Part shown: positions 36,039 through 61,717 of the stretch, one piece after another
Position numbering within the stretch: position 1 is the stretch's first letter
How the letters are laid out: the number at the start of each line of letters is the position of its first letter
Assembly: GCA_016932415.1 (NCBI GenBank)
Contig: JAFGCX010000010.1
Span: 186,001-250,000 of the forward strand
Direction: 5' to 3'
Source: Candidatus Krumholzibacteriota bacterium
GTDB taxonomy: Bacteria; Krumholzibacteriota; Krumholzibacteriia; Krumholzibacteriales; Krumholzibacteriaceae
DNA: 64,000 nt
Position numbers and translations under genes: made by a program
Notes under the pieces: generated by a model
Database searches by the model: none
What the model saw: only the letters and a program-made list of their open reading frames with translations
Told to the model about the DNA's origin: nothing

Positions 36039-38321
36039 ATGTCTTCTGGTCGTCTCGCACCTCAAATATCGAACAATGCTCTCAGGGTCCTTGAAAAGAG
36101 ATATCTACGAAAAAACGTGAAAGGGATAATCACTGAGACACCGGAAGAACTCTTTTCCAGGGTAGCTTCCGATATTGCGAGGGCAGAGAGACGCTACGGC
36201 GACAACGATAACAGGAAAAAATGGGAGGATGAATTTTATAATCGGATGGCGCAACTTGAGTTCCTTCCCAATTCACCGACGTTGATGAATGCCGGAGCCG
36301 AATTGCAACAGCTTTCAGCCTGTTTCGTTCTTCCGATTAACGATTCGATGGAAAGTATCTTTGAGACGATCAAGAACACGGCATTGATCCATAAAAGCGG
36401 GGGTGGAACGGGATTTTCGTTTTCGAGGATCAGGCCCAAGAATGACAGGGTGAAGACTACGAAAGGGATATCAAGCGGTCCTATCTCCTTCATGACGGTC
36501 TTTGATGCCGCGACAGAGACGGTAAAACAGGGGGGAACGAGGCGTGGAGCGAATATGGCTATCCTGCGGGTCGATCATCCCGATATCCTCGAATTTATAA
36601 CCTCCAAGGAGGATAATAAGAAGCTCAACAATTTCAATATCTCTGTCGGAGTCACCGAGGAGTTCATGGAAGCGGTCAAGGCCGATAAGGATTACGAACT
36701 TCTTAATCCACATGGAGGGGATGTGATCGATTCGATACCGGCCCGCAACGTATTCAACATGATCGTTGAACTGGCCTGGAAGAACGGAGAGCCGGGAATA
36801 GTCTTTCTTGACAGGATGAACAGGAATAATCCGACTCCCCATGTCGGAGAGATAGAGAGCACCAATCCATGCGGAGAGCAGCCGCTTCTTCCCTACGAAT
36901 CATGTAATCTCGGATCGATCAACCTTTCCCGGATGGTGAAAGATACCGGGGGGAGGAAAACGATCGATTTCGCGAAGCTTGGATCGACCGTAAGGGTCGC
37001 TACCAGATTTCTTGATGACGTGATCGACAGGAACAGATATCCGCTTGAAAAGATCAAGGAGATGACTCTTTCCAACAGGAAGATCGGTCTGGGAGTGATG
37101 GGATTTGCCGACATGCTGGTTCAACTCGGTATCCCTTATGATTCTGATGAGGCTCTCGAAGTTGCCGAAGAGGTCATGGGCTTCATCCAGAAGGAATCTC
37201 GCGATGTAAGTATCGAGCTGGCAGAAGAAAGAGGGGCTTTCCCGAATTTCAAGGGGAGCGTATACGATACAAAGGGAGCACCCAAGGTACGTAATTCAAC
37301 GACCACGACGATAGCGCCGACTGGTACCTTAAGCATAATCGCCGGGTGTTCAAGCGGAGTCGAACCTCTCTTTGCCATTGCTTTCATAAGAAATGTGATG
37401 GACAACGATGAGCTGGTGGAAGTAAATCCGATGTTCAGGAAAATAGCTGTCGAAGAAGGATTCGATGGTGAGGAACTTATGAAAAAGATCGCCAGGGAAG
37501 GGACGGTGCAGGGGATCGAAGAGGTGCCTGAAAAATGGAGACGTATCTTTGTCACGGCGCATGACATAAAACCCGAATGGCATATCAAGATGCAGGCAGC
37601 TTTCCAGAAATATACCGATAATGCCGTATCCAAGACTGTCAACTTTCCAAAATCGGCGACGAGGAAGGATGTCGAGGAGGTCTATCTCAAGGCTTATGAG
37701 CTCGATTGCAAGGGGGTCACCATATACCGGGACGGTAGCAGGGAAGAACAGGTGCTCAATATCGGCAAGGTCAACCGGGCAGATGAATCGGGTGTCGGTG
37801 AAGCGTCGGTTGCAGAACCGTCTGCTGGCCACCTTTTGACCCCCAGGGCAAGGCCGTCTGTGACAGTCGGAAAGACGTGGAAGATGACGACCGGGTGCGG
37901 GAACCTTTATGTCACGATTAATGAAGATGAACATGGTCCCTTTGAGGTATTCACGCAAATGGGAAAAGCCGGCGGCTGCAGCGCTTCCCAGTCGGAAGCG
38001 ATAAGCAGGCTTATCTCACTTTCTCTGAGGGCCGGGATCGATCCAAAATCGATCCTCAAACAACTGCATGGTATCCGCTGTCCAAATCCCGGTTGGGAGA
38101 AAGGTGGCATGATACTATCCTGCAGCGACGCGATAGCGAAGGCGCTTGAAAGGCATTTCATTGAAGAAAAACAGCAGACCGGAGAGAAAGTCAACAAGAA
38201 GACTGTGCACGCGGTCTCGCAGAAGGGCGTCGCGGGACTTTGCCCTGATTGCGGTGGAATGATGGAACATGAGGGTGGGTGCGCGGTATGCCGGGGATGC
38301 GGTTTTTCGAAATGCGGATAG
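36039..38321 (+). CDS. nrdJ: Adenosylcobalamin-dependent (class II) ribonucleotide reductase
   Basis: 760 residues. Reduces ribonucleotides to deoxyribonucleotides without oxygen dependence, using adenosylcobalamin to make a thiyl radical. Catalytic residues match the Thermotoga enzyme spacing: Cys95 (QQLSACFVLP) and Cys289 as the redox pair, Cys278 as radical site within Asn276-x-Cys278-x-Glu280 (NPCGEQPLLP). FSRIRPKNDRVKTTKGISSGP and FPKSATRKDVEEVYLKAYE are family segments. The C-terminus has a TSCPD-like region and a cysteine-rich zinc-ribbon (CPDCGGM, CAVCRGCGFSKC) that delivers electrons. Regulated by NrdR boxes upstream. No class I or III reductase in the window. Confidence 0.95.
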   Translation: MSSGRLAPQISNNALRVLEKRYLRKNVKGIITETPEELFSRVASDIARAERRYGDNDNRKKWEDEFYNRMAQLEFLPNSPTLMNAGAELQQLSACFVLPINDSMESIFETIKNTALIHKSGGGTGFSFSRIRPKNDRVKTTKGISSGPISFMTVFDAATETVKQGGTRRGANMAILRVDHPDILEFITSKEDNKKLNNFNISVGVTEEFMEAVKADKDYELLNPHGGDVIDSIPARNVFNMIVELAWKNGEPGIVFLDRMNRNNPTPHVGEIESTNPCGEQPLLPYESCNLGSINLSRMVKDTGGRKTIDFAKLGSTVRVATRFLDDVIDRNRYPLEKIKEMTLSNRKIGLGVMGFADMLVQLGIPYDSDEALEVAEEVMGFIQKESRDVSIELAEERGAFPNFKGSVYDTKGAPKVRNSTTTTIAPTGTLSIIAGCSSGVEPLFAIAFIRNVMDNDELVEVNPMFRKIAVEEGFDGEELMKKIAREGTVQGIEEVPEKWRRIFVTAHDIKPEWHIKMQAAFQKYTDNAVSKTVNFPKSATRKDVEEVYLKAYELDCKGVTIYRDGSREEQVLNIGKVNRADESGVGEASVAEPSAGHLLTPRARPSVTVGKTWKMTTGCGNLYVTINEDEHGPFEVFTQMGKAGGCSASQSEAISRLISLSLRAGIDPKSILKQLHGIRCPNPGWEKGGMILSCSDAIAKALERHFIEEKQQTGEKVNKKTVHAVSQKGVAGLCPDCGGMMEHEGGCAVCRGCGFSKCG

Positions 38322-39476: not shown

Positions 39477-39523
39477 TACCGGTACAGGACCGGTGGAAAT
39501 TGTCTGAAGAAAAGAGGAATAGA

Positions 39524-39967
39524 ATGTCTGACAAGGTGAGGCAAAGAGGAAGGGATCTGTTCGATTCAGGGTACTGCTGAGCTGAAAGCGTTCTGCTTTC
39601 CGTGACTGAAAGCAAGGGACTCGTCTCGGAGTTGATCCCGAAGATAGCTACCGGATTCTGCGCTGGTATCTCCAGGACTGGATATCTCTGTGGAGCTCTC
39701 AGCGGGGCGATAATGGCTGTGAGTATCTTTATGGGAAGAAACTCGCCTGCGCAGTCCGCCGAGCAGTGCTATGAAGCGGTTCAGAGATTGAAAGAGATAT
39801 TCAATAACAGATTCGGTTCTGTCAACTGTCTCGATCTGACCGGATGCGATCTGGCGACAGAGAGGGGCCAGCGAGCCTTCGAGGATGATGACCTGCATGA
39901 GAAGTGCAGTGACTACGTTTCTGAGGCAGCCGGGTTCGCGCTCGACCTGATAGGCGGTAACGATTGA
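39524..39967 (+). CDS. C_GCAxxG_C_C family selenoprotein (in-frame UGA = Sec19)
   Basis: Reading from ATG 39524 (AGAGGA upstream) gives MSDKVRQRGRDLFDSGYC, then TGA at 39578-39580, then AESVLLSVTESKGL and on to the stop at 39965-39967: 147 residues with selenocysteine at 19. Both halves belong to one family, a putative redox protein with four conserved Cys: the usual GYxCAESVL start has its Cys replaced by the TGA; CGALSGAIMA is the C-GAxxG motif; VNCLDLTGCDL and HEKCSDYVSEAA give the last cysteines. A hairpin 13 nt after the TGA fits a bacterial SECIS. Standard callers would give only a truncated piece from GTG 39602. Cys18-Sec19 could form a redox pair. Overlaps the next start as TTGA. Confidence 0.87.
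39594..39614 (+). promoter_or_regulatory. Predicted bacterial SECIS hairpin of the C_GCAxxG_C_C selenoprotein
   Basis: Perfect 7-bp stem TGCTTTC/GAAAGCA with a 7-nt loop CGTGACT that has G at its second position; the stem begins 13 nt after the TGA. An overlapping alternative stem GAAAGC/GCTTTC (39584-39600) is closer to the TGA than usual for SelB binding. Confidence 0.7.
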
Positions 39968-41064
39968 GATGGTACGCAGGCCTGGGGAAATGGACGTTAA
40001 TTCTGTCGGAGGCAGTCGTCGCAGTTCTCGTTGTTCTTTCGATATGGTCATCGGTATCAGCCTGTACGGCTTTTGTGCTGAAACGCGATGACAGTATCAT
40101 TCTGGCGAAGAATCTTGACTGGCCGGTGGGGGAAGGATTTATCTGCGTCAACCGCAGGAGTGTGGACAAATCGTCATTTCCTGCAGGTAGTACGAAGCCC
40201 CTTAAGTGGAGATCGCTTTATGGAAGCGTGACCTTTAACCAGTTTGGAAAAGAATTCCCGCTCGGCGGGATGAATGAAAAAGGCCTTGTAATCGAGGAAC
40301 TGAGCTATAACCTGTCAGACTATCCCGGATCAGGCAACTTTTTCCTCAACGAATTCCAGTGGATCCAGTACCATCTGGACAATTCAGGATCGGTCTCGCA
40401 GGTGCTTGAAAGCCTTGACAGGATAATTGTCTCTCCATTGCTTGTCAGGCTGCATTATTTTTTATGTGATCGAACCGGTCAGGCGGCGATCATTGAATTC
40501 ATCTCTGGAGAGGTAAGGTCGTATACCGGTACCGATGCGGCGGTAGAGGTCCTTACCAATAACAGTTATGAGAATTCCCTGCGATACCTCCGGCGCCACC
40601 GCGGTTTTGGAGGAGATATCGCCATTCCCGGGGGGGCGACTTCGCCCGAGAGGTTTGTAAGGACTGTCGCTCTTTTGCGCGATGAAGAAAGATCAAAAAG
40701 CAAGGCGGCTTTATCAGCGGCTTTTTTTGTACTCGATTCGGTTCGGCAGGATGACACGAAATGGAGTATCGCATATGATATTATGGGGGGTGGGATCCAT
40801 TTAAGAACCGGATGCTCACCGGCGATCCATTCTTTAAGCGTCGGCGATTTCGATTTTGAACAGGAGCCGATGATCCGATTTATAACTACTGACTGTGGGA
40901 AAAAGACTTCAAACAGGTTTAAACCTTTCACAGATCCTGAAAACAGAAGACTGCTGGAGTTTGTCTTCGAGAGATCGACAGAGGAAGGTCTTCTCGAAAA
41001 AAAAGTGGCCGAGGAGCTTCTGGGCAGGTTTCTCAGATATTGTGGAGGCAGTGGAGATCGCTGA
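39964..41064 (+). CDS. Exported Ntn hydrolase of the choloylglycine hydrolase/penicillin V acylase family
   Basis: 366 residues from TTG 39964, whose TTGA overlaps the stop of the selenoprotein gene. The signal sequence (SEAVVAVLVVLSIWSSVSA) ends just before Cys34 in CTAFVLKRDDS, the N-terminal nucleophile expected after processing. Further family features are AKNLDWPVGEGF, LGGMNEKGLVIEEL, and Asn in TNNSYENSL. These enzymes hydrolyse linear amides such as bile-salt conjugates, penicillin V or acyl-homoserine lactones; the substrate here is unknown. Coupling to a redox selenoprotein is unexpected. Confidence 0.85.
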   Translation: MRWYAGLGKWTLILSEAVVAVLVVLSIWSSVSACTAFVLKRDDSIILAKNLDWPVGEGFICVNRRSVDKSSFPAGSTKPLKWRSLYGSVTFNQFGKEFPLGGMNEKGLVIEELSYNLSDYPGSGNFFLNEFQWIQYHLDNSGSVSQVLESLDRIIVSPLLVRLHYFLCDRTGQAAIIEFISGEVRSYTGTDAAVEVLTNNSYENSLRYLRRHRGFGGDIAIPGGATSPERFVRTVALLRDEERSKSKAALSAAFFVLDSVRQDDTKWSIAYDIMGGGIHLRTGCSPAIHSLSVGDFDFEQEPMIRFITTDCGKKTSNRFKPFTDPENRRLLEFVFERSTEEGLLEKKVAEELLGRFLRYCGGSGDR

Positions 41065-52473: not shown

Positions 52474-54741
52474 ATGAAAGATTGCAAGAGGAAAGGATCA
52501 AGCGTGAAGGCCCCTGTTTATCTTGATTTTAACGCAACCACTCCGATATCGTCCGAGGTGGCCGGGGCAATGCGCCCCTTTCTCGAGGAAAATTTCGGTA
52601 ACCCCTCATCTTCCCACTGGTACGGCCTGCAGGCAAAAAAAGCGGTATCGAAGGCAAGGAGACAGCTTTCTCTTCTTCTGGGATGCGATCCCGGGGAGTT
52701 GATATTCACCAGCGGAGGAAGTGAGTCAAATAACCTGGCTATAAAAGGAGCTGCATCGGTTGGGAAGGAAAAGGGGGACCATATAGTAACATCTTCGGTA
52801 GAACATCCAGCGGTTCTCGAGGTATGCCGGCATCTTGAAAAGGAAGGGTTCAGAGTGACCTATCTTCCCGTCGACGGGGACGGACTCGTCAGCGTCGATG
52901 ATTTCAGGGACGCCCTTATTCCCGGGACGATCCTGGCGACGATCATGCATGCCAACAACGAGGTGGGGACTGTCCAACCCATTTCCGCTCTGGCCGCCCT
53001 TGCGAGAGAGCGAGGTGTCCTTTTTCACACCGATGCTGCCCAGTCGGTTGGCAAGGTCGAGGTCGATGTGAACAGTCTCGGTGTCGACATGCTCTCGGTG
53101 GCGGGGCACAAGTTCTACGCTCCCAAGGGAGTCGGAGCGTTGTACATAAGAACGGGAGTAGAAATATCAAAATTGATTCACGGCGCCGATCATGAACGCA
53201 ACCTGAGAGCGGGGACGGAAAATGTACTTGAGATCGTGGGTATAGGTCAGGCTGCTGAATCGGCAAAGGAGAATCTGAAAGAAAATCACCGTCATATGGA
53301 AAGGATGCGCGACAGGCTGCAGTCCGGTCTGAAAGAAGCTTTCGATGACATGAAGATCAACGGAAGCCTTCAATACAGGTTGCCCAATACGCTCAGCGTC
53401 TCATTTCCACTTGTCGAAGCGAATACGCTTCTTGACGAAATATCTGGTGAGGTAGCGGCGTCAGCCGGCGCCGCCTGCCACACAGGTTCTGTCGATCTCT
53501 CGACCGTCCTAGAGGCGATGAAGGTGCCACTTGAGATAGCTATGGGGACAGTGAGGTTCTCCACTGGAAGGACGACCACCCCGGCAGATATAGACATGGC
53601 TCTTGGCGTGATCATTCCCGCGGTAAAGCGGCTGAAACCGGACCGGAGCGGGGAACCTGCCAAAGCTTCCCGGGATGACGCGATCAGACTGACGAAATAC
53701 ACACATGGACTTGGATGCGCCTGCAAACTGAGGCCACAGGACCTGGAAAAAGTGCTTGAGCATATGCCCGCTCCAGTGGATGAAAATGTCATTGTGGGGA
53801 AAGAGCGCTCTGATGATGCCGCCGTATACAGGATCGGGAGTGATCTCGCGATCGTGCAGAGCGTTGATTTCTTTACGCCGGTGGTCGATGATCCTTTTGA
53901 TTTCGGGGCTATCGCCGCGGCAAATTCGCTCAGCGATATCTACGCGATGGGAGCAAGGCCCCTGTTCGGACTCAATATCGTGGCTTTTCCCTCTAAAAGG
54001 CTCTCACTGGATATTCTTCGTCGGATCCTTGAAGGTGCCCTCGCGAAGGCGGATGAAGCGGGTATCTCGATAATCGGGGGACATACCATAGAAGACAATG
54101 AACCCAAATTTGGCCTTGCAGTCACCGGTGTGATAGACCCGAAGAATATTCTCAGCAATTCGACCGCCCGGCCCGGTGACCTGATGATCATTACAAAGCC
54201 TGTCGGGACAGGAGTGATAGCTACGGCGATGAAACGGGGAATAGCCAGGCCCGGTACAGCGGCCAAAGCGATAGAAGTGATGAGCTCGCTCAACCGCGTA
54301 GCCTCGGAAACATTATCCGGATTCAACCCGAGCGCCTGTACAGATATAACAGGGTTCGGGCTTGTCGGGCATCTCAGGGAGATGACCGTCGGAAGCGGTC
54401 TGGATGCCGTGTTGTGGAGGGACAGCGTTCCGGTCATAGAGGGGACGAGGGAACTGATACTGGACGGGATCATCCCCGGCGGGACTATGAATAATTATGC
54501 ATATGCGGAAGGTCATGTCGACTGGGATGAATCGATTATTGAAGGAGACCGGCTTCTACTATGCGACGCTCAGACGTCAGGAGGGCTTCTTGTCGCGCTC
54601 GACCCTGGCCAGGCCGTCAGGGCCCTGGATCTTCTTGCCTCGAGGGGGATAGAGGCTTCAATTACGGGCCGCTTTGAAGGCGAAGGTGAAGGAAGGATAC
54701 GTGTTGTTGACCGGGGTCCGGAGATCGGAAGTGAGATCTGA
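52474..54741 (+). CDS. selD: Fusion of NifS/selenocysteine lyase-like enzyme and selenide, water dikinase (SelD)
   Basis: 755 residues from ATG 52474; GTG 52504 is an equally plausible start. Residues 14-390 are a class V PLP aminotransferase: YLDFNATTP, the PLP lysine Lys213 in AGHKFYAPKG, AGTEN, and catalytic Cys335 in SAGAACHTGSVD, whose surroundings with RFSTGRTT resemble animal selenocysteine lyase more than IscS. Residues 404-755 are a full SelD: THGLGCACKL with Cys415, Cys417 and Lys418, RSDDAAVYRIG, SVDFFTPVVDDPFDFGAI, IIGGHTIEDNEPKFGL and CDAQTSGGLL. One chain could thus release selenium from selenocysteine and convert it to selenophosphate with ATP. The SelD here uses Cys, unlike the stand-alone one at 60662. 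YitT starts with no gap. Confidence 0.93.
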   Translation: MKDCKRKGSSVKAPVYLDFNATTPISSEVAGAMRPFLEENFGNPSSSHWYGLQAKKAVSKARRQLSLLLGCDPGELIFTSGGSESNNLAIKGAASVGKEKGDHIVTSSVEHPAVLEVCRHLEKEGFRVTYLPVDGDGLVSVDDFRDALIPGTILATIMHANNEVGTVQPISALAALARERGVLFHTDAAQSVGKVEVDVNSLGVDMLSVAGHKFYAPKGVGALYIRTGVEISKLIHGADHERNLRAGTENVLEIVGIGQAAESAKENLKENHRHMERMRDRLQSGLKEAFDDMKINGSLQYRLPNTLSVSFPLVEANTLLDEISGEVAASAGAACHTGSVDLSTVLEAMKVPLEIAMGTVRFSTGRTTTPADIDMALGVIIPAVKRLKPDRSGEPAKASRDDAIRLTKYTHGLGCACKLRPQDLEKVLEHMPAPVDENVIVGKERSDDAAVYRIGSDLAIVQSVDFFTPVVDDPFDFGAIAAANSLSDIYAMGARPLFGLNIVAFPSKRLSLDILRRILEGALAKADEAGISIIGGHTIEDNEPKFGLAVTGVIDPKNILSNSTARPGDLMIITKPVGTGVIATAMKRGIARPGTAAKAIEVMSSLNRVASETLSGFNPSACTDITGFGLVGHLREMTVGSGLDAVLWRDSVPVIEGTRELILDGIIPGGTMNNYAYAEGHVDWDESIIEGDRLLLCDAQTSGGLLVALDPGQAVRALDLLASRGIEASITGRFEGEGEGRIRVVDRGPEIGSEI

Positions 54742-60661: not shown

Positions 60662-61717
60662 TTATTTCAGCATTATTCTTCTCGGAGCCGCCGCGATGAG
60701 AGATCCTATGACCCATGATCCACCACCCGCTTCGCGTAGTTCTGTTTCGAATATTCCCAGGCCAGCCGGAGGTATTGCAAGAAGAAGCCCGCCGGAAGTC
60801 TGGGGATCGCTTGCTATTCTCAACATACCGGCGGGAAGGTCTTCCTTATACTTGAGAAGATCGCCGGCAAAGACGAGATTCCGTCGCTCACCTCCCGAGA
60901 AGAATGACGCTCCCGACGCTATTTCCATTGCTCCCGGGAGAACGGGAAGAGCGTGAGTGTCGATCTCGGCTGACAGGCCTGAGGCGAGGATCATTTCTTT
61001 CAGATGTCCGACGAGTCCGAACCCCGAGATATCAGTCGCGCAGAGGCAACCGGCGTTTACAGCTGCCTCGGATGCCGCGCGGTTAAGACCTGCCATTACC
61101 TCGATCGCGTAATCTATATCTTTTTTCACGGCGGCGTTGTTCATCAGCGCGTTGGAGAGAAGCCCCGATCCAAGAGGCTTCGTCAGAACGAGGATATCAC
61201 CAGAGTTCCCCCGGTCTTTTCTCATGAGTTTTTCGGGATCGGCTATCCCGGTGACGGAGAGGCCGAACTTTATCTCCCTGTCCGAGATTGAATGTCCGCC
61301 CAGGACGGCGACTCTGGCGGCGGCGCATATATCAGACGCTCCCTGGAGGATCGCCGTGAGGACAGATTCGGGAAGGGCAGTGTCGGGAAAAGCGACTATA
61401 TTCATCGCGGTGACAGGTTTCGCGCCCATCGCGTAGATGTCGGAGAGGGAATTCGCCGCTGATATCCTTCCGAAATCATACGGGTCGTCTACTATCGGAG
61501 TAAAAAAATCGAGAGTCTGGACGAGAGCGGGCCCGCCGGGAAGTTGATAGACCCCGGCATCATCAAAGGAGTCGGCTCCGATTATGATGTTCGGATCGCT
61601 GCTTCGATCGAGATTCTTGACAATCCTGTCCAGCACCGCCGGATCGAGTTTAGACGCTCAACCCAGGCAGCTGGAAAACCCGGTCAGCTTTACTGCCGTC
61701 TTATCCATGTCAGTCAT
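60662..61717 (-). CDS. selD: Selenide, water dikinase with in-frame UGA (Sec20)
   Basis: On the minus strand, ATG at 61717 (AAGGA 9 nt upstream) reads MTDMDKTAVKLTGFSSCLG, then TGA at 61660-61658, then ASKLDPAVLDRIVKNL, and continues to TAA at 60664: 351 residues with selenocysteine at 20. Aligned to E. coli SelD (GCGCK) the Sec is at the catalytic Cys17 and the next Lys is kept (G-U-A-S-K-L); Cys19 is Ser. Later SelD features: DSFDDAGVYQLPGG, TLDFFTPIVDDPYDFGRI, VLGGHSISDREIKFGL, TDISGFGLVGHL and SDPQTSGGLLLAI. Without readthrough a caller would start at GTG 61636 and lose the active site. It makes selenophosphate from selenide and ATP. pepT lies 14 nt upstream in the same operon. Confidence 0.92.
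61629..61643 (-). promoter_or_regulatory. Predicted bacterial SECIS hairpin of selD
   Basis: Minus-strand stem TCCGGC/GCTGGA (6 bp including one G-U pair) with loop GGT beginning with G; the stem starts 14 nt after the TGA, the spacing expected for SelB recruitment. Confidence 0.6.

Follow-up and report, generated by a model that had tools for sequence, protein, structure and literature searches.

A probable selenoprotein gene of the C-GCAxxG-C-C family with an in-frame TGA at the conserved first cysteine

Based on alignments of homologues, profile searches and analysis of the genome's selenium genes, the gene at positions 39524-39967 (forward strand) of the 64,000-nucleotide stretch analysed here (the window) very probably encodes a functional selenoprotein of the C-GCAxxG-C-C family, with an in-frame TGA (39578-39580, forward strand) read as selenocysteine (Sec) at codon 19 of a 147-residue product. 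Sec insertion itself is what we infer; this reading is supported by the alignment column in which homologues carry either Cys or TGA, by the Sec machinery of the genome, by a hairpin following the UGA and the position of its loop, and by homology that extends across the TGA. In the proposed mechanism, SelA, together with selenophosphate made by both SelD enzymes of the genome, would charge tRNA-Sec, and SelB would bind the hairpin whose loop lies 20 nt past the UGA and deliver Sec at codon 19, giving a small all-helical protein with Sec19 heading helix 2. Ordinary gene callers would split or truncate such a gene, so that the finding amounts to a correction. It also enlarges the set of selenoproteins in a lineage well supplied with selenium genes, whose genomes carry Sec machinery and in some cases a second selD gene.

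The reading frame and the Cys/TGA column

The start codon ATG at 39524 is preceded at a distance of 5 nt by the ribosome-binding site AGAGGA (39513-39518, forward strand), which agrees with the good initiation signal that the sequence-only reading had placed ahead of the TGA. Over the 147 codons there is a single internal TGA, and the gene's own terminator is also TGA (39965-39967). The read-through product, MSDKVRQRGRDLFDSGYCU-AESVLLSV...CGALSGA...NCLDLTGCDL...KCSDYV..., matches the PF09719 profile with 92.6 bits (cut-off 27, residues 17-139) and the TIGR01909 profile with 68.4 bits (cut-off 47.4, residues 18-138). Both matches span the TGA, and the earlier proposal that two same-frame segments of one family are joined by this codon holds with its coordinates exact. 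The 18 codons before the TGA are also part of the same protein, since the homology to two relatives (L051 and L053, 54-55% identity) starts at residue 1.

In the codon-19 column, 108 homologous loci carry Cys in 104 cases, TGA in four and nothing else; the TGA thus stands at the family's conserved first Cys, as had been claimed, and the homologues show no sense codon there other than Cys. Among the alignable homologues from whole-genome searches, Cys (TGC or TGT) is present in 26 and TGA in one (L035, genome G103). A scan of approximately 85,000 species genomes gave 80 loci, picked by similarity to the subfamily, of which 78 have Cys and two have TGA (L063 from Anaerolineales and L125 from Coatesbacteria). 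The remaining TGA belongs to L148, from a genome (G030) that shares its class with the window genome. A TGA in genome G133 was left out of these counts because the locus (L150) gave no alignment. Six columns are invariant in alignments of both 22 and 63 sequences, and four of them are Cys: 19 (TGA in this gene), 56 (within CGALSG), 102 and 128. The argument that a random stop would rarely hit this codon proved only moderately strong, as a single mutation would also produce TGA at 20 other codons of the gene, among them the three other invariant Cys codons; the strong evidence is that four other, unrelated genomes have TGA in this column. TGA at the same Cys in five genomes suggests that this residue is the reactive one in this putative redox family.

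The nearest Sec homologues come from other species and genera than the window genome, and the sole relative in the genus-mate G001 is a Cys form with 28% identity. On the tree, the Sec members are interspersed with Cys members and five changes are required, but well-supported branches force only one, leaving a single versus several origins of Sec in the family undecided from these sequences. Another family homologue (L032/L137, genome G008, C7:1666-2094, minus strand) carries an in-frame TAG a few codons past the first Cys (FAEA*GID). In the window, a ribonucleotide reductase with barrel, all-alpha and TSCPD domains, presumably of the B12-dependent class, is encoded at 36039-38321 (forward strand), and a choloylglycine-hydrolase-family protein (PF02275), below NCBI's bile salt hydrolase cut-off, is encoded directly downstream of the gene at 39979-41064 (forward strand). 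The gene neighbourhoods around the 80 homologues were inspected, and no partner recurs convincingly; the largest cluster resembles antisense or overlapping frames. A search for plasmid origin gave no match.

Selenium machinery and the hairpin after the UGA

The genome (3.11 Mb in 38 contigs, 95.5% complete) encodes selA (490 bits), selB (350 bits) and two selD genes (378 and 337 bits), all above curated cut-offs in a profile search, as well as a tRNA-Sec (selC; 53.8 bits) with a UCA anticodon in the anticodon loop CUUCAAA, the gene being cut at a contig end. A genome lacking selA, selB and selC had been named as an outcome that would speak against Sec, and the full set was found here. Both selD genes are located within the window, approximately 6 kb apart. 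One encodes a fusion of a NifS-type cysteine desulfurase with SelD in the Cys form (GCACK; 52498-54648, forward strand, with the true start possibly slightly upstream), and the other a stand-alone SelD that is itself a selenoprotein gene (CLGUASK; 60662-61717, reverse strand, TGA at 61658-61660). The same pair occurs approximately 6 kb apart in the genus-mate (C25:219031 and C25:225943), and SelD with one TGA recurs across the family, order and class; together with the Sec machinery of the genome, this makes Sec decoding an established trait of the lineage. A survey of prokaryotes listed only two NifS-SelD fusions, one of which is that of Geobacter sp. FRC-32 with Sec (PMC4561486); in relatives of the window genome, open frames of 739-831 aa surround SelD genes without TGA, which suggests that fused forms are common in the lineage. 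The other four genomes with TGA in the codon-19 column have selB above the cut-off, and two of them (G103 and G030) also have selA. Of 20 homologue-bearing genomes that were tested, 19 contain selA, and the homologue is in most of these a Cys form; the Sec machinery is therefore necessary but does not on its own predict whether the Sec or the Cys form is used.

Beyond the UGA, the 7-bp hairpin that had been noticed 13 nt past the stop codon is present and forms the upper part of a putative bSECIS (39590-39620, forward strand). After the 13-nt spacer, the stem UGCUUUC/GAAAGCA (39594-39600/39608-39614) carries the 7-nt apical loop CGUGACU (39601-39607), which starts 20 nt after the UGA. The bSECIS model published in PMC13188914 requires 3-9 nt in the loop, 4-16 bp in the upper stem, a distance of 16-37 nt from UGA to loop and a minimum free energy of at most -7.5 kcal/mol, with a G within the first two loop positions that is mostly followed by G or U. 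The hairpin of this gene, which reaches -9.7 kcal/mol with its lower helix and has GU in its 7-nt loop at 20 nt, falls within these limits. All five TGA-bearing family members pass the model, against 33 of 104 Cys homologues (Fisher p = 0.004). A further homologue (L147), whose TGA is that gene's terminator, was used as a negative case and has no SECIS-like hairpin. The model is weak when used alone, because it is passed by those 33 Cys homologues and by 302 of 2,486 codon positions in other genes of the window; it is also passed by the window's Sec-SelD gene.

The position of the loop is more discriminating. Hairpins at 19-20 nt from the UGA occur in four of the five TGA members (the fifth lies at 22 nt) against 5 of 104 Cys homologues (p = 1e-4), and at 33 of 2486 ordinary coding positions (1.3%). 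This comparison was made post hoc; selD, an independent gene, subsequently served to check the rule on loop position. The Sec-SelD gene of the window has a SECIS-like hairpin (61629-61643, reverse strand) whose loop, GGU, begins 20 nt past the gene's UGA. Among 14 Sec-SelD genes of relatives (L153-L166), in which the Sec site was located by alignment, 13 pass the model, and the best loop lies at exactly 20 nt in eleven and at 19 nt in one; in the six Cys-form SelD genes that were examined, no such hairpin is present at that place. The near-constant 20-nt spacing from UGA to loop provides a handy search rule for other selenoproteins of this lineage. A scan of the window with Rfam models gave no match at gathering scores.

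Because GAAAGC occurs twice (39584 and 39608), flanking GCUUUC at 39595-39600, a second, mutually exclusive hairpin competes with the putative bSECIS. This structure, GAAAGC-GUUCU-GCUUUC (39584-39600, forward strand), shares the GCUUUC arm with the bSECIS and places its loop 9 nt from the UGA, closer than the bSECIS model allows. The minimum-free-energy fold of a 69-nt region around the TGA favours the competing pairing (39584-39589/39595-39600), and the region folded in isolation is not better than shuffled sequence (z -0.55). With the UGA in the A site, the upstream GAAAGC copy would lie inside the mRNA channel of the ribosome, and the SECIS pairing would be left free. That the two hairpins constitute a ribosome-gated SECIS, in which the upstream one would block SelB until the ribosome melts it at the UGA and the SelB-binding hairpin then forms, appears improbable.

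Predicted structure and alternative readings

An AlphaFold2 model built with 63 homologues is all-helical and of very high confidence (pLDDT 96.1, pTM 0.91). Residue 19 is the first of helix 2, Cys56 lies just before a helix starting at residue 57, and Cys102 opens a short helix. Low-pKa thiols and selenols typically have the reactive residue at a helix start. The protein most probably carries out cytoplasmic selenol/thiol redox chemistry with Sec19 as the reactive residue, a redox role being assigned to the family by annotation. The expected partners of Sec19 would be the invariant Cys56, Cys102 and Cys128, together with Cys46 of an FCxG motif, an extra cysteine frequent in the subfamily of this member; both the redox reaction and the redox partner are parts of the explanation that we infer. 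A search of the literature on the PF09719 family found no reported substrate; a PF09719 protein of Desulfococcus biacutus is induced during growth on acetone and was called a protein of unknown function (PMC4103992).

If the gene encodes a selenoprotein, the Sec/Cys set could instead bind a metal or an Fe-S cluster, an assignment that is unlikely but of some weight. The four invariant Cys positions are possible ligands, and the CGALxGA segment shows weak, local likeness to split-Soret cytochrome c (NF047622, E 5e-5; PDB 1h21, E 0.003). The PDB match, obtained with a 63-row profile, has a best stretch of 37 residues, and a 22-row profile retrieved nothing from the PDB at E 0.01. Against ligand binding, comparison by fold turned up no PDB entry that matches the whole fold (best E 2.9), and Sec is described in PMC13188914 as uncommon as a structural metal ligand and as generally replacing a catalytic redox Cys.

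It is highly improbable that the TGA arose as an error of sequencing or assembly, or by a recent nonsense mutation that has turned an ordinary Cys protein into a pseudogene. The assembly is a draft of 38 contigs, TGC or TGT becomes TGA by one base, the majority of homologues have Cys, and no sister orthologue is available for comparison, the genus-mate G001 having only its 28% identical Cys relative. However, the frame is otherwise intact across 147 codons, TGA occupies the identical column in four other genomes, the genome has the full Sec machinery, and the SECIS-like hairpin lies at the lineage's own spacing, which would be expected at 1.3% of positions.

Still less credible is a shortened protein, produced either by termination at the TGA or by a restart after it, in which the first Cys would be absent and the codon might serve as a regulatory read-through site. 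A 121-codon open frame does extend from GTG 39602, the first open-frame start 3' of the TGA, but this GTG lies in the hairpin loop and lacks a ribosome-binding site, in line with the earlier statement that no convincing start follows the TGA. Moreover, helix 1, the greater part of helix 2 and the invariant first Cys would all be missing from the short product, and no homologue of such a shape was seen. Genome-wide reassignment of TGA was rejected, because this gene uses TGA as its own terminator and the large neighbours that were checked, selD excepted, have no in-frame TGA.

Relation to known families

Three known systems resemble the product in part. The DVU_1555 family C-GCAxxG-C-C protein (NF045669) belongs to the same superfamily, but the product scores 55.9 bits against a cut-off of 103 and is not a member. 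The HUGP/GUXX-star fusion selenoprotein (NF045501, model length 236) shows local similarity; in contrast to it, the window protein has no fusion, and with 46.6 bits against a cut-off of 325 it is not a member. Split-Soret cytochrome c (NF047622, PDB 1h21) is alike in the CGALxGA segment, but the score of 22.8 bits is far from the cut-off of 400 and the likeness does not extend to the whole fold.

PF09719 is already among the listed bacterial selenoprotein families, as "form 1" and "form 2" (PMC9312934 and PMC13188914), and the latter source gives MGD8741185.1 and WP_012158890.1 as sequences of the two forms. The NCBI name of TIGR01909, "C-GCAxxG-C-C family (seleno)protein", likewise allows for Sec. 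The gene is a new member of PF09719, a family of which Sec versions are already known. It resembles the TIGR01909/PF09719 family in scoring above the curated cut-offs, in its four invariant Cys positions and in having one Sec per protein, and it differs in that the window member belongs to a subfamily with the extra FCxG cysteine, Cys46.
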